From Gonapodya prolifera JEL478 (Eukaryota; Monoblepharomycota; Monoblepharidomycetes; Monoblepharidales; Gonapodyaceae), in assembly GCA_001574975.1 (NCBI GenBank), contig KQ965899.1, forward strand, positions 2,045-42,036: DNA of 39,992 nt, written 5' to 3'. Of the stretch, positions 12,009-32,088 are shown one piece after another. The translations under genes and the position numbers were made by a program. Position 1 is the stretch's first letter. Each line of letters starts with the position of its first letter. The notes below the pieces were generated by a model that saw only the letters and a program-made list of their open reading frames with translations, was not told where the DNA came from and did no database searches.

Positions 12009-15000
12009 ATGGACTTTGACATCGAGCAAGACGGCTTTCCCCCACTCGCGACAGAGGATCATTCCGTAGCCTCCATTGATAAGGACGATGCTACTCCATC
12101 CGAGCCCCGAAGCGACCTTCGTCTCATCCTTTCCAGAGTCAATGGAACACCCTTGGATAAGGAGTTCCTCGAGGCTCTTGCGAAAGTTGCGAAAACTTAT
12201 GGACACAAAATCGACGTTTCTGATGCTCCAGAGAGAGGAGAATGCGATCCTGTGAGCTACCCAAAGGGTCACCGATCCGACAACACATTCGCACGAAAAT
12301 TTACTTCTAAACCGATGTTTTCCCCACTTGAAACTCAATTCCCCATCACTACTATGTACGTTGGCTGCTGTAGGAAACAGATCTCATCGGTAAGTGACTC
12401 AGACCATCTCCATTAAATCATGTTCCATCTTCACGAATTGTACGTGAAGTCCCAGCGACCCCTCAACTGAAGTCATCTCCAAAACATGACTCCCTGATAC
12501 AAAACAATCTAGGTACCGTGGGGAACGCAACTGGGCCGAGAAAACCGTCTGACATTGTAAGTGGAGTGATTCGCGCGGAAACCCGTTGTCTAATATTATG
12601 TCTCCAAGGACTCCCGAACCACGACAAGAGCAAATAATATCGTCTCAATTGGCTCAGAGCCAATACCAGTAGCCGACTGTTCTCGTGCTCACGCTCTCCC
12701 GGACACGGGTGACATGGAATTAGCAACTTTTGACGTCACCTCGGATTCGTATGGTGAGAGTTATACTTGTTTGTCCAAAATACTCATCACGTTGAGTGTG
12801 ATGTGTTCTGATCCGGCTTTCAGTTCCTACAGCCATTAGTAACCAACGTAGCACTGAAATGATCACAGTGCCGATCCCGAGCATATCCATTGAAGAAGCT
12901 GTTCATACCGCTTTGACAGCCACAAATCGGCTGGCCACTTGCCAAAAAGTGATCGAGTGGATATCATTCAACGTGCCAGGATATCCCAGGGGTGGCGCGT
13001 GGGAGGTGAATTCGGATATGAGCGAGAAGAAAGCGATTCCCATTGTTTACATTTACCTTCCAGCGAGTGATGCCATCCGTCACGAACAAGTACAGGCAAA
13101 AGCACTTCCTCAATAAAAATGGAGAGCATCCCTCTCCCCCCGTCCATTCCATCAACGTTCGACACGCCCCAGCAGGTGAGCTCCTCTATGTTGCTGGTTT
13201 GGTGGTGAAGCCAAGAGCTCCCCCTTTCTGCACTCCACAAAGACCTTCATGTTGCGCAAGTAAAACGGACCGTGCTTACGCCCTCTCCAATTATGGGAGC
13301 TATCGCCGTGCAGAGACCGAAAGCCCTCCGTGAAACTTTGGAGCAGTCCGCCGCCTGTCTGAAATCACCTGAGGCAAAACTTACACCCCTTCTTCAAAGG
13401 ATTACAGATACTCCTCCTTTCCAAGCGACCCAAGCTGTTCCGATTGTATCTCAGAGTTTGGACGTAGTTGAAGTGCCGTCTGCACCGGTTTCTGCCTCTA
13501 CTCGAGAACAAGATCTTGCGGAGATCAGACATACAGCTTCGTCCACGCCGCCACCTCACGATAGTGCACATAATGCTGCTAATTGTGTTGAACGGAATGC
13601 TTCCATTGTATCATCCGTGGATTCACCTTCAGGCGAAGAGACAACTAAGAGCTCTCATGTACCGAGCGCCGCGAGGATGCGCACAAAAGCCACAAATAGG
13701 AGGCAAAATTCATCGGCATATGCAATGCAGAAAGCTCTTCTTCACCTACCCGACCAGATGGGAACAAACGCACAGATCATCGAATGGATTGAAAACAATA
13801 TGCCCGAATATTTCCTCGGAAAGCGTGAGTGGAAGGTAGGTGAGGCATGTCTCCACCGTATCAAAGATTAAGAAGCATTTCTCTTTCCTTTGATGACATG
13901 CATAGAAGGGGCTCAAACCAAAACTCCACTTTGATTTGGTCAGCAGAAATCGTCGTGTGTGGAAGCTTCGTCCTGGTACTCAGATCCCCCATCATGATTA
14001 TGACGGCGATGAGGTGCTGGAAGATGCCAAAGATAGAAGCAGCGCTTCAACGCAAGTCGAGGAACCCTGCGTATTGCATCATATGACAGCCTCCAGTGAG
14101 GGTTGTAACAATAACTCGGTCTCGGAAGACTCGGATGAGCCAGATGGGCCTAAAATATACGCAGCACTTGTTTCCCACGCCGTACGACTTGCTTTTCAAG
14201 AGTTGCCCAATCAACAAGGCACCGTGGACCAAGCCATGAGGTGGATCGAGCATAGAGTGACGGGATTGGATGTTTCAGGAGCTCAATTGAGAGTGAGTCT
14301 TGAGAAAGTAAAACCCCATTCAAGTCCTTTGCAACAACTAAACGTGCTTGTGTAAAGGTAAAAGTCCGAAGCTTTCTTCGCCAAGCAAAAGGATTTGTCC
14401 GTGTGGGCAACCGCACACCGAGTGTGTATAAACTAGGTCGGAGCACTTCCCAAAGTGAGCCACGTCAAGCTGCTGCAATCTTTTTGTGCCCTTTATTTTC
14501 GTAACATGCGATGCCGCTAGTTCTCGATCTTCCACGATCTGCACTCTTGGAGATAATGAAATTTATGACTCCTCGCGACGTCAAGCGATTTTGCTCCACG
14601 AACCGAACTGCATTCGAGATTGGAATGAGTTTCGATGTGGTTCGTGTTTGAAGCTGTTCATCATAGATATCCTCTTTATACAAGCCAACACACGTGTTTT
14701 TAAACAGGCTTACTGGAAGTCACAGGTTGAGCGTGCTGGAGTCTTGGGGATTATCGAAAGAATGGGCTGGAAGCAGCAGTATCGAATGTGGAGGTGGGTT
14801 CTAGTTGAGACCATGAAGTCGTCACGGAAAAGAAACCGATTTTTTGACCAATCTTCTAGTCAAATATTTGACATCACTGTAGGAAGCAAAAATTGCGCCG
14901 AATGTGGGGCGTTTACCACCATTGTTTCCGGAACCACTTTCGAGGTTTGTTCTGCTAAAATGTCTCGCGAGAACTCCGATTCACAAGTACCCGCACGAAT

Positions 15001-15619
15001 CAGAGGCTTTGCATGACCTGCCTCAATATCGATGACACCACCGCTATAGCCGACTCAATGATCTCTAATGCTGTCGATTTGAAAAAGTGAGTGACCTTTT
15101 GAATCTGAGTGTAGTGGGAAGACAAATTGACAGCCACCTTGCCACACAGGTACATTGATCCCGATACACTCGAGAGCGACACAGCGGTCGAGTGTACGAT
15201 ATGTCAGCGAAAGCTCGCGCTGTCTCAGCTCACATTTCCAATTGGAGTATCGGAACGGGTTCCGTGCAGCATGCTCGAGAAGCATCTTGAACAGCACGAG
15301 ATGGAAATACGCATTTTGGAACAAGAGGTTCTTTGATGGTGTAGAATATTCACTCTTTCCTTTTCATTTAACGTGTCCTTCAATTTTCAAGGTTAAGAGA
15401 CTTCCTGTTGGGGAAAATTTATCTCCGAGCGAAGACTTGTGAGTCGAACATATTTGCACGGTCGGATTCGGCATTGAAAGATCTGCCGCTCCCTCCGATG
15501 ATGCTGAAGTGCCAGAAATTGGGGATTGCTTGATGGAGGAGGTTCCTTCTCAATACGAAGGTGTGGGTGATGGTGCCAAGGAGCTAGAAGAGTATGAATG
15601 GTGGTTCTTTCCGATTTAG
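12009..15619 (+). CDS. Forkhead-like winged-helix repeat protein fused to an F-box
   Basis: I do not recognise a named family. Fifteen exons join with consistent phases into 905 codons. After a low-complexity N-terminus come three related units, encoded at about 12859-13120, 13715-13975 and 14150-14440. They share a spaced pattern of A..AL, then QxIxWIE, then P.Y, then W, then a final VWKL or VYKL, which resembles a forkhead/winged-helix fold (inference). An intron at 14455-14520 (GTGAGC to CTAG) then joins to an F-box-like helix, LPRSALLEIMKFMTPRDVKR, followed by WKSQVERAG, a CAEC pair, RLCMTCL and CTICQ: a Cys-rich region that could bind zinc. Without that join, the first part stops at 14502-14504 and a separate F-box gene starts at 14511, only 6 bp later, which is unlikely for two genes. 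Roles could be DNA binding plus SCF substrate recruitment, but this is speculative. Confidence 0.62.
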
Positions 15620-18187: not shown

Positions 18188-20304
18188 TCACATAATGGAG
18201 CACGCTCGAGGTCGTCGGGCATTTCGTTGTCTCACATCGAAGCCCATCACCAGCATCATATTCTCGGCTTCAATTCGACCGGCCTCGATGTCAAGTTCTT
18301 GCTGGCGGGCTGCTACCTCTTCGGGAAACCACCTGCAGGGTAAAGTTTACCGATCTTAAGGAATAATGATTGAATCAACATCGCTCATGGACACTCACTT
18401 CTTCATCACTTCCACCTGAGCCTGGTCGATATTCTGCAACCCCGCATCGTGGAGGGCGTCTGGAGCACGGCAGATCGGACAGTCACGTCGACCACCAGTA
18501 ACTTCCGACTTAATGACGCAGCTAGTTTGAGGTAGAGGTTAGATGGTATACAAATTTTGAAAAGGCTGCAAAAGCACTTACGTGTGGCAGAAGCTGTGCC
18601 CGCATCGAAGTTTCACGGGTCTCCAAAGAATTTCGGAGCACACAGGACAAGAGTAGTCGTCTGGTTGAGGTATTACAGTGACGAGATTATCAGCGATTGC
18701 GGAGACAAGGCGACGGAAAGGAGTGGTGGTGAAAAATGGGTGCGTGCTGAGGAGTGAATGGAACGGGTCGGAGGCGCTACAAAAGCGAAGTGTACCATGG
18801 GTTAGAGGGAGCGTCCGCTGTATCGACACAATCGATTGGGACACGTACTGCAGATTGGTACGTTTGTCGTGCTTCTTAAGGATCTTCGTGATGGCCCGCG
18901 AGTTAAGGAATTCAAATTTTCGCACTCGCACGCATTCCCAATTCAAGCGTAAGAATGCGTCAAGAAGCAGTCGGCTCGCGTTGGCGCTGAAGTCTTGAGC
19001 AATATGTGAGGCTTTCTGTTCAAATTCCACGAGACCTTCGGATACCACATCCAAGGGTCGTTCGCGGAGCGTAGACGGTTCAAGAAAGGGTGATATAGAG
19101 AGGTAGAGAGCGAGTAGAGCCCGCCAAGTGTACAGCTCTTTATGGTTGTGGTCGTGTCCGCCAAAGTGAAGAAAGCCGGCGAACCGCTTTCGAGAGAGCG
19201 CCGCGTGTGGTTCCGTACTTGCTGTGCCATGCAGCAGCTGGTCTTCGCCGGTGGACGGGATTTTGTGGAGCTCCTCGTTCAACCGCCGAAGTTGTTCCTC
19301 TACATTCCCCACAGCCATGTGGATGGACGATCCTCGGCTGCGGTCTGAGACTGCAATCATCGCCTTCGCCATCTTGTCAATATGCTCTCCATATCGCTGT
19401 TGCAGAGCGGCTTCGAATGCAGAAATCTCTTGGACTGTTTTGGCCAAGTTGGTGAGAAACGACGAGTCTCCGGGAAGCGACAACGTGGCTGGTACATGGG
19501 GTAGAATGGGATTTGTGGCGTCAAGCGATGTCGCTTCAAAAGTGCTCGCCGCTTCTGTACTGGTCTTGGATACGGCAACAGAGTCCATGGAGTCGATAGA
19601 ACGTCGCCTCGCTACGGACCCGAACGAGGCCTGGGAGCTTAACCGACGAAACATTTCGCCCTCAGAAAAGGTGGCCGATGTAGCATCGATTGTTGCTCGT
19701 CGTGGGCGTGAAACTGGGACCGACAAAGTTCGTGTTACATCGGAGCCCGAAGGGAAGCTCGATTGAGCGGGAGCGCTCGACGATAGAACGATGTTTGGTC
19801 CAGACTTGTCGAAAGGCGTGCTGGTGTGATTGGAGTCAGTCTCAGCGCTCTCAGCGAGGGTCAATCGGGCAAGGGCTGAAAGGTCTATGGATGATTCCGC
19901 ATCAGTCGTATTCCGGACGGCCAGGAAAGCCTGGATAGCGTGGTCTGGCTCCACTAAAAAGTCAAGAAGTCATGAGAATACATGGTATGCGATATGTTGA
20001 CCTGGCACGGAAGCAAACGAGAACGCACACGTTGTGAGGGTATAGACGACCTCCGCATCCTCTGGAAGCTCTGCCAGCTGTTCCTCTACAGCACGCTGCA
20101 CCAGTTTGATCGACTTCTTGAGCTGTGGGAGGATCAGAGGGAGGACAATCCGAAAACGTTTATGCCAAGATTCGACCGGACCATCAAGCGCGGCTGTCCC
20201 GGAGGGAGAGCGATAGCTCTTACCTTTTTGTAGTCCACTGCGTGCGTTCGCCATTCAATGGGGAGTCCTTCCACCTCCCGCTCGAGCTCCTTTGCGAACT
20301 TCAT
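18188..20304 (-). CDS. SPX domain-RING finger protein with a CaaX box
   Basis: Probable ubiquitin ligase with a phosphate or inositol-polyphosphate sensing SPX domain. Translation starts at 20304 with MKFAKELEREVEGLPIEW and, after a short intron, DYKKLKKSIK, the conserved start of SPX domains. A long Ser/Thr-rich insert follows, then the remaining SPX helices with KILKKHDKRTNLQYVS, whose lysine cluster is the family's polyphosphate-binding surface. A C3HC4 RING comes next: CPVC, then CGHSFCHTC, then CPIC. A helical tail follows. The last four residues are CSIM, a good CaaX prenylation motif, preceded by the basic stretch RNARRPRA. SPX-RING proteins are known in fungi; a prenylated one is unusual. 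The exact number of residues in the middle exons was not checked. Confidence 0.85.
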
Positions 20305-22658: not shown

Positions 22659-23085
22659 GGGCCCGGAGCTGACTGTATCGACTTGTAGTACATCCGGAGG
22701 GTAAACCTCTTGGTTCTGTCAACGGAATTTTTAAATTCCACCTTATGACACTTGTAAATACATCTTTTTGTCTCGATTTTCATTGGGCAACCTTCTGTCC
22801 GTTCTCGATCCACACCAATTATTTTGATTAGACCGCCCGCCCGGCCTTGCCGTTGAATGTTGCTGGCGACATGTGTACTTTTGAAGCCCAGAAGTGGGCT
22901 AGACAGACCATCCCTCCGCCACTTTCGTTTGTGTAAGTGAACGTTTGCAGCCCTCCACGCACCCTGTGGTCTCTCCAGCCTAGCCCGGAAGAGGAAAGTG
23001 CTTTGAGTTGATATGATGTGCGCAATATTCAATTAATAATCTAACAGCCTGTACAGTAATGCACCGAATCAATAAACATTTAAAT
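22659..23085. other. Convergent intergenic region
   Basis: About 430 bp between the 3' ends of H2A (+) and the Zn-cluster regulator (-). Nothing coding is supported. I see no metazoan-type histone 3' stem-loop immediately after the H2A stop codon, which agrees with intron-containing, polyadenylated histone genes. Confidence 0.5.
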
Positions 23086-26000
23086 CTAGATGAGCCCTTC
23101 CCCCATTCGACGCAAAGTCATGTAATAGTTGCCTCCAGCACCTATGAAATCAGACTTCAGATTGGTTTAATCGCAACCTCGCCCCCATTCCCCTCACTCA
23201 CCCCAGCAATGAGCCATCCTCCTGAGCATTTCCAAATGAACCGTCAGACCTTCCTCCGTTCTCTGGATAGCGGCCGCAAGGAGATCCCCTGGAGTTTTGC
23301 TTTTGAAGTGTGGACCAACAATGCTGTCCAAGTAATCATCTATTGGAATGGCAGACTGCAGCTCATGTCGGCATAAGGCGTGGACTGCGCCGCACTGAGA
23401 GAAGGAAGAACAGGGTGGTGAAAAAAAAAGATCCAAAATACTTGTGCCTGTGAAATCCTCACCTGGAACACGGGGTGGAAAGCAAACGTGTTCACCCGTG
23501 AGCAATCGGGGTTCCGCAAAAGCAGTCGAGTCACAATAATACTGCTTTCATATGCAGTACTGTAGCAGATCTCCTGCGAGCGTGGGGTGGGCCACACCAA
23601 CGAAGGACCCCCATCTGGGGAGACAGTTGCCGAAGGTCGATGCAAGAGAACACGCGCGAGACAAAACTGGTGTAAAACAAACGCCATGGGTTAGTGAACG
23701 CTGACAAAAATATTTGAGCCAAATTCACCATCAATCTCAGGAAATGCGCTGCATGGAACACCATCTCTTCCTGCTTGGGTACGCCATCATCCTCGGCCTC
23801 CTGAGGAGACACTTCCGATCTCAAGGCATTCTTGATGTATTCCGGCAGCGCGGCTTCCCACTTCGACAATGCCAGCTCGAGCGATTCTACCGTGTCCTCA
23901 CACGACGCATCCGGTCGGCCGGCCTTCAATTTTGCAAAAGTTCGTACACGGTGGAGAATTCGGTACATTTTACATCGCTCCAGGAATCCGTATGAGGGGA
24001 AGCGGTGCTGCAGGTCCCGAGGATTGGAGGGGTCGGAGAGTGGAACAGGGGCGCATAAGCCGCGAGAAGAGAGATCGGATACAATAGCTTCGGCAGGGGT
24101 TCCCGGAATAGGGTGGCCAAGGTCGTCGACTAAGCAAATTATGAGTGAGAACATTACAAACGGAATCGGTTGGTCAAGAAAGACAGCCGACACTCACGTC
24201 CATTCCATAACTCGTCACTCGGGAGTGGAAGGCTTGCAAAGGCGTCCAAAGAAGGTTGTGGGTGAAGAGCATTCTAGAAGAGATTGTTATGCACGAAACA
24301 ATTGTGCACCATCCAAGAGGACATCCTTACATCATAGTTGAACGCGTAGTCCACCGCAGATATATAAAGAAACCAAGGAATTCTGGTTCGGAACTCATAC
24401 TCCAGTGGATTGAGCAGACGAGGGGGGGGCGAAGAAGGCGGTAGAGTGCTGGCAGGTGGGGGAGGGTGCTGGAGGCCCATTTCAAGTGCCTTATAGAGTG
24501 CAAGAACGGTCCAAGCGTGCCCCCATGAACTCTTTCCTTGGTCACCGGCGTAGGAGCTAGGCACAACGGTAAAACATTGTTCGGACAACAGATCTTGTAG
24601 GGAGTCCAAAAAAACTGAACTTACCCCATCATGAACACAGCGCGAACAGTTGTCAACGACAATTCGTCAACGGACGCGAGGACTCGCTTGGCCCTTGCCA
24701 AAAAAATCTCCGCCTGCCTGCGTTGCCTGAGGTACCTAAATCCGTACGCGAGCGACATATTCAAAAGCAAGGGATTCTTGACGGCATTAGGTCCGAGCAG
24801 AAGAGCAGCCGGCATCTTACACAAAGTATGACGAGACAAAAATTCAGGTGTCACGTGGACGCTTCACTACTTAATCGGCGACTCACCCCAATCGAACACC
24901 AGCATACCGAAGTACCCAAGTACTTTTCCAAAATATATTTGGTCTCGTCCTCCGACAAGAGTGCCGGATTCAGTCGCGTCATGATGCTCAATAATTGCGG
25001 AAGGGGATCCACCCGAAGAGAAACCAAGAGATCCTCGTCCGCCTGAAACCCTTCCTCCTCCGGCCAAGTAGCTTCTTTAGGGCGATTTCCGTAAGAGGTC
25101 GCCTCAGATATGATGGTGGAGACTGGCTCGAGGGTCTTAATCTCCACATTTGGTAATTTTGGCGACTCCGAGGTGGGCGATGCGGACTGGGCCGGCGGGG
25201 ATCCTCCTTGTTGGAACGCAACCGCTTGCAGCTCCTGAACAAGGAGTTCGACCTCGTCTACACACGACTGGAGCTCCTCGCGGGACTTCTGCGTGAGGTA
25301 CTTCGTGTCCCTTGCAAGGAGGACAATATGGGACAAGGGGCTCGGTGGACTGGTAGAAAGACCTTCGTGAGCGGTGGAAGAAGTGAGGCTGAGTGACGTT
25401 GGAGACTTGGACAGCTTTGCATTTGTCGTAGGCGGGGTGTACGGCGATGGCTTCGCTGCAGAACTTCCGACGGATTCAGTGCTCCGGGAAGGCATTTGCG
25501 CAGGGATGGGAACAGCCGGGGAGGTCTCGCAAAGCGTCGACATGACCTCGTCCACATGTTGGGACTCCAGCATGCCGAGACCAAGTGAGACGGGGTCAAG
25601 GTTCACGAAAGGCTCAAAAATATCGTCCGTAGCCTCGGAAGTACCAATCAAGTGGTACATGTCCACGTCCGCGGCAGGAGTACCGGAAGAAGCAATGTTG
25701 TATGGAGACATCATCCAATCCGCGTGATCTTTATTGCAATATGGTGGTCAGGGGAGACACAAGTGTATTCGACACAACAAGTGGCTCACCTTCTGTCAGT
25801 TTTCTCTTCTTCGAAGTTACCGGAGGCAAAAGGTCCGCATCTGGTTGAGATGTGTAATAAGTGTCCCCACTCAACCCTCGCCCATTGAAATGTGCTGAAT
25901 GTCCGTTCTGCCCTCCAGATCCTATCATCGGAGGCATGGCCATTAAGTGTCTGGCATTTTCTTCGGTGATCTGCGCCCTCCATGCAGATACGTCCATATT

Positions 26001-26606
26001 GAGAAGCGTTTCGGTGTCTGCAGTGACAAGGGTGGGTGACGGCGAGCGTTCCGGGCGATTGACGGAAGTGGTGCCGTCCGGTACCAAATTGAGCACAAGA
26101 GATGATGTAGCAGCGAGGAGGGAAGAGAGGTTGGGCGTGGCATCGACTGCAGTCGGGACTTGAGCTCCATTCTCCAGGATCTTGCCAATGCGGGTCATCC
26201 TGGCGAATTGATGGATCGTGACACGTGCGATCACAAAATATCCAGTAAGTCGGAGAATAGTGACTTGACCGAGAAGGGATTGGTAACTCACTGAGTGACC
26301 AGGTCCGATAAGAGTTCTGTTGACACTCCATTGCCAGTCCCGCCAGAGCTCACACCAGGAGGCCGTTCGTAAGTGCATTTCCTCCTGGGACCACAGGTCG
26401 CACATGGTTGCTGCCCATCACAGCGGCGTTTGAGAGAATGGCATCTGGATTAACTTCGGGTCAGCTAGGTGCGGATGCCCCAACCTTCCAGGTGACAAGT
26501 ACCTATCGCAGGCCTTCTGAACTTTCTTTGAGGCTAAGTTCCGTGGGTAAAGATTGGAAAGTGATCGGGACTCGATAAATCGGCGGGGACAACCTACAGA
26601 CAACCA
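23086..26606 (-). CDS. Zn2Cys6 fungal-type transcription factor
   Basis: Gal4-type sequence-specific DNA-binding regulator, nuclear. The zinc cluster forms when two exons are joined (around 26520 and 26440): KACDRCHSLKRRCDGQQPC and then ATCGPRRKC, with cysteine spacing C-x2-C-x6-C-x5-C-x2-C-x5-C. A basic KKRKLTE follows near 25800, then a Ser/Pro-rich region, then the fungal_trans middle homology domain with LLLNMSLAYGFRYLRQRR, SSWGHAWTVLALYKALEMGL and TRIPWFLYISAVDYAFNYD. Helical C-terminal parts follow. The last exon reads through a splice at about 23190 to RRMGEGLI and a stop at 23086-23088. The initiating ATG was not resolved; the first coding exon may lie slightly upstream of 26606. Target genes are unknown; the divergent CMD genes are the nearest candidates. 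Confidence 0.82.
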
Positions 26607-27214
26607 TCACGTACCATCGGTGACATTTCTCTTGTCTAAACGCTTCGCACTTTTCTTCGCCGCAGTCTCCGCACCAATTCCGTTCATTCCCTTGCTACTT
26701 TCGTGCGATCTGTGGGGAAACAGAGCGTGTGTCCTAAGACGTTTACTGGCAACCGCCTGCTTTGCCACACATCTGTGTCCTTTTTCGGTCTGTGGCATGG
26801 AGATACTCTTATCACAAATAAAACTTTCTCACTATGCTAAAATTGGAAGTCAGAGGAGAGTCTCGAGTGGTGTGGGGAACGGGGTGAACGTATGCTCCGG
26901 GGTGTTGAGTCACCTCCGTCTGGTCACCACAGTTCCCATGTTTCATCCCCTTCCTCCTTTAGATAATGTGATTCAATGATTCAATTAAATGGTCGATGAG
27001 GAAGATTCTGCAGAGACGATTACATGCTTGAATCTTCTCATCTTCGTCCAAACACCTTCATTTCCAATCGTTACGTGTTTATGCAAGGTCGACCATATCA
27101 GGAAGTCCGTTTGTCCTGCTGTAATGGTCATTACAAGATAATAAGTGGTTCTGGTGGTGAAAAACGGCACATCGAAGACCGATTCCGACCAAAGAAATCC
27201 AAACCCAACCAACG
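26607..27214. promoter_or_regulatory. Divergent intergenic region, regulator / CMD genes
   Basis: About 600 bp between the Zn-cluster regulator (-) and the first CMD gene (+), so it should hold both promoters and perhaps the regulator's first exon. Only short overlapping ORFs are present. No convincing CGG-N-CCG zinc-cluster operator stood out on reading. Confidence 0.4.
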
Positions 27215-28216
27215 ATGGGACCCACGGCTGCCGATGCCCGCGCGATTATGGCCTTGTACAGGTGAGCTGCCCAATCAGCATTACCAGAGTATCTCAGACG
27301 TCCAAATCGCTGCCATCCGCATCGCTCTGATTGCTCCCCCTGCCATTTTCACTTCATCTTCCCCAGAGACTTGGCAGCAAAAGCTGGCGCGACCAAAGGT
27401 TTCGCGACACAAGGCGTATCGGACTTCCTGAAGGATGTGCGTTGACTTACACCTTAGAATTCGCGATAACGCTCTGCTGACTTCTTCAACATTTGATGTT
27501 AAGATTCAACAGGTGTGGTGTGAACGCGTGTTTGCTCCAGGGGTGGGAAACTGACGCTACCGTCATAACGATCCCGAAGCTTATTCCAGACATGGGTGAT
27601 TGTGAGTGCTCTCGGCGACCTCTTTCCCGCATATCCCCTGACCCTCCCCTTTCCACTCCGTGCTTTTACTTCTCCCCCGTTTCTCTCGCAGTTACTATCC
27701 ACTACATCGCCAAAGTTTACGCCGCACCAGGCCTTGACCCAAAGCAGCGCGCTCTTCTGGTGCTTTCAACTCTCATAACTCAAGGCGCCGAGCCAGAGCT
27801 TGAGATTCACGTGAGCAGGAAAGGGGACGTGGACTTTGATGTTGCAGTGCGAATAATCTCTCTCTCATTCCGTTCGCAGACTCACACGGCGCTCAACGTG
27901 GGGCTCCTACCCAGAGAAGTAGCTGCAGTGCCCGTTAATTTGATTCCATGTGAGTGCAGCGTCTTCGGCCATTTCACTCCAGTGAGTGAATGAATTGCCG
28001 TATTATAATGACTCTTCGTTCCAGACGTCGGCTTTCCGTCTGTTCTGGTAAGCGACTTGACTCCCTTTCCCTCCCCAGTCTCCGTTTACTATTCGCCGTT
28101 CTTTGCAGAACGCTCTCAAAGTGATAGTCCGCGTTTTCAAAGAGCGAGGTATTGACATAGCGAAAGTAGGACTGGAACAAGCTGGTGCGCTCTTGAGTCG
28201 TCTGATTGCCACGTGA
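27215..28216 (+). CDS. Carboxymuconolactone decarboxylase-like protein 1
   Basis: Small all-helical protein of the CMD/AhpD-like superfamily. Eight exons are inferred: 27215-27261, 27367-27436, 27513-27542, 27580-27601, 27692-27810, 27880-27949, 28025-28047 and 28109-28216 (162 aa, phases consistent). The core reads GLDPKQRALLVLSTLITQGA, then ELEIHTHTALNVGL, then PYVGFPSVLNALKV, matching the CMD pattern. I see no CxxC thiol pair, so it is closer to gamma-carboxymuconolactone decarboxylases than to the AhpD peroxidase reductant; substrate unknown. The intron at 27543-27579 is only 37 nt and is the weakest join. A second copy follows 77 bp downstream. Confidence 0.75.
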
Positions 28217-28293
28217 TCGTGTTACAAAATGGCGGATCTCTCAACACAGCCCTGAATAAAACGAAACCCGCCAAAGAGCCCGGGCGGGTTATC

Positions 28294-28922
28294 ATGCGAG
28301 AATATCGTGATATGGGCAAGGCACTTGGAGCTAATGTTGTGAGTCATAGAAGGCACGAGGACATTAACTGGGGCTCACAAATCTCACTTTAGGGAATGGC
28401 GATGCCAGGTGGCCCCTCCTTTGCCAAGGACACTCGGATCATCGCACCGCAGATGCGGGGTAAGCACTGCAATCTTCCCTCAGTGCTCACTAACCCACAC
28501 CTTTGCGTAGACATCCAGGAGGAAACTGGGGACTGGATCTATGCGCGCCCAGGCTTCACAAAGCATCAGCGAAGTTTGGTGATACTAAGCTCGCTCATCA
28601 CCCAAGGCGTAAGTTCGCCTGCGTTGTCGGTCTGCCTTTGATCTGACCTTTCTTCCGCTCGACCAGGTTGACCCCGAAGTTCACATACACGTCCACACTG
28701 CGTTGAACGTGGGACTGACTGCGCGAGAAATAGTGGCGATTGGGTGGACTTTGGTGCCATGTAAGTGCTGCAATGACAGACCGTTTCGACAGAATGGACA
28801 ATATCGTTCGTGCATTTCCAGATGTGGGATTCCCCCGGTCATTCAACGGTCTGAAAGTGATGGCGGCGGTATTCAAAGAGAGGGGGCTAAGTCTGGAAGA
28901 GGTTGGCAAAGGAAAGCTTTAA
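28294..28922 (+). CDS. Carboxymuconolactone decarboxylase-like protein 2
   Basis: Tandem paralog of the preceding gene. Exons are 28294-28338, 28393-28459, 28511-28608, 28667-28760 and 28822-28922 (134 aa, phases consistent). The core reads FTKHQRSLVILSSLITQGV, then VHIHVHTALNVGLTAREI, then PYVGFPRSFNGLKVMAAVF. It shares with copy 1 a phase-1 intron just before the tyrosine of YVGFP, which supports duplication. Sequence just upstream of the ATG still encodes GRVI in frame, similar to copy 1, so the true start could be upstream on an unrecognised exon. No CxxC pair is present. Confidence 0.72.
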
Positions 28923-29305
28923 AAACAATACACGATATTGCCCATTACCCATCCATTCTTCGTTTTAACTAGAGCTAGGATCGTCCGTCCTCGGCTTGTC
29001 TACTCGTTCTCTTTCCCTCGGCTCTCTTTTACCTGTGTCGATCGCCTGACACTTGATCACGAAAATTGGGGGACATCGCGTAGACACAGGAGAGTTTAAG
29101 TGCCGTGTCGCACAATAAAAGATCACTTCTCGTAAGTGTCAACTTGGTGCCACTGGAGCAGAGATGAGGACTCGTCTGACTACGGGTGTGAATTATGCAG
29201 AAGGCAAAAAATCTGAGCCGAACGTCGCTTTGTACCACTCGTGAACCTCGGGGTGACACTGCATGGTTGGGCGACTTAAGTGGTTTGCAATCTCGCGGCA
29301 GTGAT
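28923..29305. other. Convergent intergenic region
   Basis: About 380 bp between CMD gene 2 (+) and the PIF1 helicase (-). No coding potential is supported; it should contain both 3' UTRs. A CACAATAAAAG stretch near 29110 could act as a poly(A) signal on the plus strand. Confidence 0.5.
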
Positions 29306-31974
29306 TCATTCGCATTTACCAACCATCACTTTTCTGGCGTCAAAATTTAGCACCTGTAAGGTTTCAAGCGACCTTGCGCGTGATAAAGCAACGTAGACTT
29401 GACCGGATTCACTATAGTCGTCCCGGCGAAAGGTAGGTTTGTCATTCTGTGCACACTCAGCAATCATTTCATACCTACAAGACTGACTTGAGATCGACCT
29501 TCAACCTATCAAGAGTAAGTCCTTGAGATTTATGGACAGTGGTCGCCCACGCGAGTGCGAGGGGTATTTGAGAGCGTAAGGCGACAATTTTGCCTGGGGG
29601 ATTGAAGGAATAGAAAGATCCGCACGACGTGAGATCTGGTACACCAACCATTTTCCTTGACATTCCATTCTTCTCTGTTGAGGAGAGCTACTTCTGATCG
29701 ATCAAACTCCAAAAACATGTCTGGTAAATCCAAAGTCTCGCAATAAACAAAGTGAGGTGACACACCTTCACGACAGGACACCCTGTCAGTTCGTCAAACG
29801 TTTCTACAGTCCCAACAGATCCGTTGACAAGGGTAGGGGAGAGATTCTTCAGTAGCATCACTAAGGCCCCAGCTTTCAACGACAGCGTCTCTGGTGCCAT
29901 GCAGCTTTCTAGTCGCTCTTTGCTGCCTTTATCTTTTGCCTAGAATGGAATGTCAACGCGACTCGAACCCCATCGCTTCGTCGTAACTCACGCGGAAAAC
30001 TCGCACCGTTCCTGGCAACTCTCTTAATTTCATTCCATTTTCTTCGTCCACTTCGTCTCGTCTTGAGTACAATACGCTGGGTTCCTTTCCTTGCCATGCC
30101 GTGGGGACTTTTTCCAGGCTTTGCAAGGTGGATATACTGTTGGTTGACAAATTGCCTGTCCGGATCTCGTTCAGAATGTTTATGAACTCGATGTCCGTCT
30201 GGCGAAACACAGTCTTGAGATCGAAGAAATGAACAATGGAATTCCTGAAACATGGCGATTGGAAGACTGGAGGCAAACCCCGTTTCACACATTCTGAGAC
30301 CTTATAAAGGGATTCCTACGTACGGAACCGAAGCTCCCGTTTGCTTTCGCTGCGCTCAAATGGCTTGGCAACAACTGGGGGAAGTTCTGGTATGGAATTA
30401 ATTGAGCGCGACACAGTTTGGCAACGAATACACTTCTCATGCGTAGGTACTTACGAAAGAAATCACCGGACATCACCAGTTGTATCCCTCCAAATGGTTC
30501 CAGGGAGCGACGAAGTCTGCAGGCAATTGCTTCAAGCTTCTCAAACTGTAAAACGCGTCATAAAACGTTTAGGGTTAAACGGAGCCACTCCCCTAGTGTG
30601 AAAAGGAAAGCATCCCATGGTCGAACTCACCAAGTCAGCATCCATCATGGACACTTCATCCACAACAAGAACTTTTGTGTTGATCCACTTGCGGTAAAAT
30701 CCCTTTCGTGAGCAGATAATCTTGATGAGCGTATCCACTTCCTCGTCCCCAAGGCCGATCCCTGCGAACTATGCGGACCAAGAAGGAAGGTACATCAAAG
30801 GGAGCATAGAGAGTCGAGTATTTGCGCGTACCGAATGAATGGTGGTTGCTCCGATGTTCACGGCCGCAATACCGGTAGTCGCCGTGACAGCCACTGCTTC
30901 TTCACCATGAAGCTGCTGAAGCTGCTCGACGAGGTAGCGCAAGAGGTGGGATTTTCCCGTGCCCGCCGAGCCCGTAAAGAAGACAGATTTCTGGAGACAG
31001 AATACCCATCAACCGTTTGGTTTTGCAATGCAGTGGCCAGAAAGAGCGCCCTTACACGATTGTTGAGAACGGTTTTCGCCACTTCTTTTTGCTCGTCCGA
31101 GAGTGTGCTTTCATTTATTAGAGGTTGCGCAGGATGTCGGGGTACCACCTTGGGTAAGTCCGAGACGCGGGCCTAGCAGTGTCAAGCAATTCATTGGGCT
31201 ACTATCGTTGTCACATATCAAACTCCTTCACACCTTGATGTGTGTCCGCAAATGCTTCGAAATGGCCACCTTCACGTCCGGGAATTCTGAGGCACTAATT
31301 GTACATCACGTCTAGGGAGTACATTTGATGATAACTCACTATCTCTGATTGCAAGTTCCACATCACTGTAAGCGTTTATGGGAAGCAGCCATTTCCGCTG
31401 GTCCATATCCCACCGGATGTGTCCATCAAAAGCTAGCCTCGACCATTCCGTGAACTCTTTTGATTTTTTGTACTTCAACGCGAAGAATTGTTGGTTGAAT
31501 GGCTCGAAGGTCACGCGATTCGGCAGTTGAGACGACGACGTGGGCCGGCGATGGCGGTATGCCACAGGGGAGGATTCCCGGGACGAGTGCGACAGAGCGA
31601 TCGCACTTGTGTAAAAATTTCGAGCGTCCGTGATTGCTGTCGCGGGGACACTGATGCCTGTCCCGAACCCCAGACGACAAAGAGCTCGCACGAGAGTTGG
31701 TGAGCTCCTTTTCCCGTACTCTCGTAGGGCACAAATGTACACGTTCCAATAGAGAGGTCGATGAAACTGCATTCCCTCAGAATCTCCGATGATGGACTCC
31801 ACCACCGTTGTGACGTGTTCGAGTCTGGACAAAGACGCGCGCTCCTCAGACAACGATCCGTCTACTTCCAAAGGTACCAGCCTGACCTGTACGTTGCGTT
31901 ACCGCGGCATAAGAAAGGACCGTTGCTACGAACGTATGCTTTGGATGCGGGCTCTCGGTCTTCCAACTACACAT
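29306..31974 (-). CDS. PIF1-family DNA helicase
   Basis: 5'-to-3' superfamily 1B DNA helicase for nuclear or mitochondrial genome maintenance. Motifs in order: [16 protein letters not shown] (Q-like motif), [14 protein letters not shown] (Walker A), [17 protein letters not shown] (Ia), [14 protein letters not shown] (Walker B), [13 protein letters not shown] (III), [40 protein letters not shown] (V) and [19 protein letters not shown] (VI). It ends at 29306 through an exon joined near 29417/29490. At least eight introns are present. Upstream of the helicase, an extra domain of about 150 residues contains [20 protein letters not shown] followed by [11 protein letters not shown], resembling the HARP domain of SMARCAL1 (inference). 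The first exon (31974, [10 protein letters not shown]) is tentative. It lacks Rep and OTU domains, so it is not a Helitron transposase. Confidence 0.85.
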
Positions 31975-32088
31975 TTGCCAGGTATGAGAAAGTCACTGGC
32001 ACTTCTGGCACTTCTAATTGTACTTCTGATTTCAATATAAACAAAATGAGTCAAATACATTTAAATATATACACAGTCATGCCCTCCT

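Follow-up and report, generated by a model that had tools for sequence, protein, structure and literature searches.

The window analysed here, i.e., the whole stretch of 39,992 nucleotides from Gonapodya prolifera JEL478 (assembly GCA_001574975.1, contig KQ965899.1, positions 2,045 to 42,036 of the forward strand), carries a predicted gene in which three mutually related, forkhead-like units precede a segment similar to the F-box and two clusters of cysteine and histidine residues. Numbered from the first letter of the window, the features are as follows:

12009..15619, + strand: whole predicted gene, 15 exons and 885 aa, as a hand-built exon chain.
12009-12389, 12513-12556 and 12629-12753, + strand: N-terminal region, exons 1-3, no known domain.
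About 12883-13153, + strand: unit 1, the most divergent of the three, forkhead-like from shuffle tests and intron position, with intron 13006-13063 inside.
About 13713-13968, + strand: unit 2, forkhead-like, with intron 13836-13905 inside; Pfam Forkhead at 16.5 bits, E 0.0094, when searched alone.
About 14152-14435, + strand: unit 3, forkhead-like, with intron 14293-14357 inside; Pfam Forkhead at 15.3 bits, E 0.022, when searched alone.
14455-14520, + strand: disputed intron GTGAGC...CGCTAG, 66 nt, phase 1.
14454-14639, + strand: F-box (ILDLPRSALLEIMKF...), across exons 8 and 9, from the Pfam F-box model.
14708-14793, + strand: exon 10 (AYWKSQVERAGVLGIIERMGWKQQYRMW), the stretch after the F-box, placed by the exon chain.
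14894-15021, + strand: first Cys cluster, CxxC-x15-CxxC, with intron 14945-15003 inside, read directly from the translation.
15193-15297, + strand: second Cys/His cluster, CTIC...HLEQH, with BED-finger-like spacing, read directly from the translation.
15481..15619, + strand: last exon, with an acidic C-terminal tail and the stop codon, placed by the exon chain.

With the exons joined by hand, the gene opens on an ATG at 12009 and its stop codon ends at 15619, which makes the open frame 2658 nt long with the stop included; these boundaries, together with the intron at 14455-14520, are those given in the original prediction and proved correct. All 14 introns are of the GT-AG type and 12 of them are 58-72 nt long, the remaining two measuring 123 and 42 nt. 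Under a coding model trained on the other genes of the window, the frame of the gene model outscores the two other forward frames in every exon but exon 2 (14/15), in a comparison where the model frames have a slight advantage from being stop-free by construction. When the coding model was retrained locally, leaving out one exon at a time, the model frame came first among the three forward frames in 12/15 exons (exons 2, 8 and 10 failing) and first among all six frames in 8/15. Exon 2 (12513-12556) thus receives frame-score support neither from the window-trained model nor from local retraining, the splice sites and joins flanking exons 1-3 are weak, and exon 1 finds no Pfam match at E values up to 10. 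The chain is taken as good from exon 4 onwards and as uncertain over exons 1-3.

The composition of the gene stands apart from that of its surroundings, with a GC3 of 0.48, whereas the ten genes predicted by the finder in the window span 0.58-0.81. The window-trained coding model also scores every one of the 15 exons below zero (total, -99.6), and a simple gene finder trained on the window's other genes called nothing at 12009-15619. These values can be read as the mark of a decaying or non-functional gene, i.e., a formerly normal forkhead/F-box gene under weak constraint, a reading with which the unclear exon 2 and the loss of helix-3 residues described below would also agree. Against this, the GT-AG exon chain is still open over its whole length and its frame surpasses the other two forward frames everywhere except in exon 2, and decay is considered very unlikely. 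Of note, the same finder called nothing over some 9.4 kb at 22659-32088, yet open frames are present there, one of them with a match to carboxymuconolactone decarboxylase (E 5.7e-5), and genes whose codon usage differs are probably beyond so crude a finder. Further along, a long frame on the + strand at 35886-39023 matches the AAA-ATPases (Pfam AAA, E 5e-37); its best PDB rows are CDC48/p97 and it might, as a guess, be a PEX6- or AFG2-like gene. A search of the window against Rfam gave no match.

The central part of the predicted protein was originally described as three mutually related units, a description borne out by both shuffling and shared intron placement. For the pairs of units 1 and 2, 1 and 3, and 2 and 3, respectively, the local alignment scores were matched by 2, 2 and 0 of 5000 shuffles and the global alignment scores by 18, 1 and 0 of 5000, and BLASTP of unit against unit returned E values of 4e-6 and 3e-5. 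A phase-0 intron interrupts every unit immediately ahead of helix 3, namely at AWE/RVM in unit 1, EWK/KGL in unit 2 and QLR/VKV in unit 3. In a MAFFT alignment the introns of units 2 and 3 share their codon position, from which that of unit 1 lies one codon upstream, a shift against unit 3 that recurs in a second MAFFT alignment; aligned on the Trp instead, the intron site of unit 1 coincides with that of unit 2. Such near-identical sites argue for internal duplication, although the acceptor of unit 1 was chosen by hand for its open frame, which was not the case of the donors. For the same reason less trust can be placed in the second half of unit 1; the alternative acceptor that ends at 13095 was rejected since in phase 0 it runs into a stop codon.

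Kinship of the units with the forkhead domain appears at the level of the profile. A profile of the three units, from an alignment built without any forkhead sequence, listed 36 PDB sequences, of which 34 are forkheads (counting five names, e.g., AFX and GENESIS, which we take to be forkheads) and seven have E values of 1e-3 or lower, led by FOXP1 (E 3.5e-6) and FOXP4 (E 5.8e-6); the two other rows are eIF3B (E 0.25) and alpha-actinin (E 1.1). As such, the nearest PDB forkheads are FOXP1 and FOXP4, then other members of FOXP, then FOXA. Against Pfam Forkhead, with a cutoff of 27 bits, the whole 885-aa protein scores 24.2 bits (E 3.6e-5) over two stretches, and a 222-aa piece comprising units 2 and 3 plus the intron-retained tail scores 26.5 bits. 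Searched singly against PDB sequences, unit 2 has FOXA1 (hepatocyte nuclear factor 3-alpha) as its best row at E 0.075 and unit 3 has FOXP1 at E 0.54, and unit 1 alone gives no Pfam match and no forkhead among its six PDB rows. A profile of units 1 and 3 without unit 2 returns FOXP in three of four PDB rows, at E values of 0.34-1.1 that are not significant. Acetyl-CoA carboxylase for unit 1 and P450 for unit 3 were rejected as kin, their rows standing at E 0.59 or worse. Folded on its own, exon 7, which spans the second half of unit 2 and the first half of unit 3, yields a low-confidence model (mean pLDDT 46) of two strands and two helices, placed where the wing and the first helices of a forkhead would be expected. 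Profile, Pfam and shuffles together support forkhead ancestry for the repeats as originally proposed when these are taken together; for unit 1 on its own, the proposal finds no forkhead match in Pfam or PDB.

In forkheads, an Asn of helix 3 and an Arg-His pair make contacts with DNA. In the printed PDB alignments, this helix reads WKNAVRHNLS in the FOXP1 row and WQNSIRHSLS in the FOXA rows, where the window has WERVMPSVTNKYRQ in unit 1, WKKGLKPKLH in unit 2 and LRVKVRSFLRQ in unit 3. The set N..RH is kept as such in none of the three units, unit 3 retaining the Arg alone; in units 2 and 3 this helix is nonetheless still basic. The DNA binding that the original prediction had entertained is thus not supported, in the form known from forkheads, for any unit. 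The charge of the units allows a less specific role, the counts of Lys/Arg against acidic residues being 8 against 5 in unit 1, 11 against 6 in unit 2 and 12 against 4 in unit 3. Given this Lys/Arg richness, general contact with nucleic acid by units 2 and 3 is possible.

Behind the repeats, the original prediction of an F-box is supported by similarity to the Pfam model, at a score that lies near the curated cutoff (20.5 bits) and depends on the piece submitted: 21.2 bits for a 207-aa C-terminal piece, 18.9 bits (E 0.0014) for the whole protein and 19.4 bits for a form starting at the ATG at 14511 (MPLVLDLP...), the last two being below the cutoff. A single-sequence model of 14511-14639 contains three helices at a mean pLDDT of 72, and Foldseek of this 43-residue F-box model against the PDB gave no match. 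We presume that exon 10 resembles the stretch found after other F-boxes. The intron that follows, 14794-14859, is a multiple of three in length and open if retained, so that an isoform with 22 extra, Lys/Arg-rich residues is possible. Both Cys/His clusters look metal-binding from the spacing of their residues. No finger name was retained for them: a zinc ribbon was rejected with Pfam DZR at E 0.2-0.48, far below the cutoff, and a BED finger with zf-BED at E 0.27 and 11.7 bits against a cutoff of 20.6. Searched against PDB sequences, the half of the protein comprising the F-box and the clusters gave three rows at E 0.35-0.74, judged to be due to chance. A few kb from this gene, the - strand at 18578-19969 holds a reading frame of the SPX-RING ubiquitin-ligase type, in which an SPX domain (Pfam, E 5.4e-11) comes before a match to the initial half of a RING-type finger (E 6.9e-6, below the cutoff).

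Whether the forkhead-like and F-box halves belong to one protein depends on the 66-nt intron at 14455-14520, whose retention would bring in an in-frame TAA at 14502-14504, followed at 14511 by an ATG in the same frame. The donor AAA/GTGAGC stands at the 98th percentile of the GT sites of the + strand (97th in a leave-one-out model of the gene) and the acceptor at an ordinary 60th percentile of the AG sites of that strand (48th in the leave-one-out model). A GTAAC lying about 17 nt before the end of the intron is a possible branch site, and the length agrees with the 58-72 nt class. Within the range searched, five joins are compatible with the frame, all of them through the same acceptor; 14455-14520 is the best and the other four were rejected on their lower scores. 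The original claim of good splice sites with a matching phase therefore stands as regards the phase, the strength of the donor and the preference for this join over the others at the junction, the acceptor being only ordinary. As a chance control, each stop codon was paired with the first ATG found no more than 37 nt beyond it, in any frame and on both strands: of the 975 such neighbourhoods, 581 contain a compatible intron measuring 55-75 nt and 45 (4.6%) contain one scoring at least 6.5, where the real one scores 6.6, under a splice model trained on 33 introns that come, unverified, from the analysis's own gene finder. Given these 45 comparable cases, the splice signal by itself is suggestive.

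Read without splicing, the same junction describes two abutting genes, namely a forkhead-like protein ending at the TAA at 14504 and an F-box protein starting at the ATG at 14511, the promoter of the second lying within the first gene. The single in-frame TAA with an in-frame ATG 6 nt on, as well as the plausible, normal-looking F-box N-terminus that MPLVLDLP... would provide at its 19.4 bits, speak for this arrangement, but 6 nt is too short for separate 3' and 5' ends, the gaps between neighbouring genes on the + strand being 89-2046 nt (five gaps, two of which include the studied gene, with borders from the same simple finder). The continuing frame is moreover unfavoured in the stretch that would be retained up to the stop, 14455-14501 (-7.0, where the two alternative frames score -4.5 and -7.2), and a good donor is located there; this arrangement is held to be rather unlikely. 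A third possibility keeps both halves on one message, either bicistronic or subject to regulated retention of the 66-nt intron, where the spliced form would encode the fusion and the retained form a forkhead-only protein together with a free F-box protein re-initiated from 14511. An intron that is a multiple of three in length and contains both a stop and an in-frame ATG would suit such a switch, but 6 of the 14 introns of the gene share this property of length, which is thus not diagnostic. Polycistronic transcripts are reported from mushroom-forming fungi (PMC4503453), and re-initiation in fungi is reported where the spacer measures 9 bp (PMC10352335); such published bicistronic messages speak for this possibility, but both precedents concern other fungi. 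We regard it as quite improbable. Splice signals and spacing rather favour both halves being in one transcript, and a one-gene fusion across 14455-14520 is likely.

Taken as a whole, the original observation holds at the level of the sequence. The account we favour, with reasonable though far from full confidence, is that of one eukaryotic gene for a divergent F-box protein, in which three degenerate, tandem units derived from the forkhead winged helix are followed by the F-box and the two Cys/His clusters. The protein is probably a nuclear SCF receptor. In such a receptor, (i) the F-box would dock on SKP1 and hence on the CUL1 ubiquitin ligase, (ii) the three predicted winged-helix units, of which two are clearly basic, would tether the ligase to chromatin or nuclear partners without reading sequence in the classic forkhead way, and (iii) the Cys/His part and the linkers would choose the substrate. 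A bolder version, put forward as an unlikely one, would make of it a lineage-specific family of SCF receptors, where forkheads were duplicated in tandem, lost their DNA-reading residues and were joined to an F-box, turning a former transcription factor into a chromatin-tethered ligase adaptor, with the stop-containing 66-nt intron switching between fused and separate forms.

Searches for relatives in contig collections confirmed none: the half with the F-box and the clusters gave no pattern match in viral contigs and 12 pattern matches in genome contigs, none confirmed; in viral contigs, the profile of the three units gave 22 and exon 1 gave 13, again with none confirmed. Since these collections consist of viruses, bacteria and archaea, the lack of relatives says little. 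As to precedents, no fusion of forkhead and F-box was found in the literature searched for the two terms, as judged by titles and the starts of abstracts, and the view that no described family has this order of domains agrees, within that scope, with the result. The protein is read as a new combination of known parts, each half being of a known kind. If the fusion is expressed, it would represent (i) a case where a forkhead-derived module is physically and directly linked to SCF ubiquitin ligases, (ii) a second kind of fusion between a forkhead and a domain of the ubiquitin-ligase type, beside the forkhead-RING fusion of annelids, and (iii) an example of the reuse of a DNA-binding domain after the loss of its recognition residues.

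Compared with the forkhead (FOX) domain (PF00250), the repeats show a kinship in sequence, visible with profiles, that covers helices 1-3 and the wing, as well as an intron inside each unit; they differ in forming three degenerate tandem units, below the Pfam cutoff and linked to an F-box. With F-box proteins (PF00646, the SCF substrate receptors), the C-terminal half has in common the motif LP..LLEIM....., three helices as predicted by the single-sequence model and the presence of Cys/His clusters afterwards; it differs in having its F-box at a central position, preceded by the putative winged-helix repeats. KDM2A and KDM2B (FBXL11 and FBXL10) offer a likeness in uniting a DNA-binding domain and an F-box in one chromatin protein; they differ by their CXXC finger, JmjC, PHD and LRRs and, to our knowledge, have no forkhead. 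The annelid fox orphan-3, which combines forkhead, RING and RAWUL and for which the authors report RNA-seq confirmation in Owenia fusiformis, is similar in that a divergent Fox domain is fused to a domain of the ubiquitin-ligase type (PMC9539403). There, this domain is a RING and the protein belongs to an animal, whereas here it is an F-box and the forkhead-like units are three in number.
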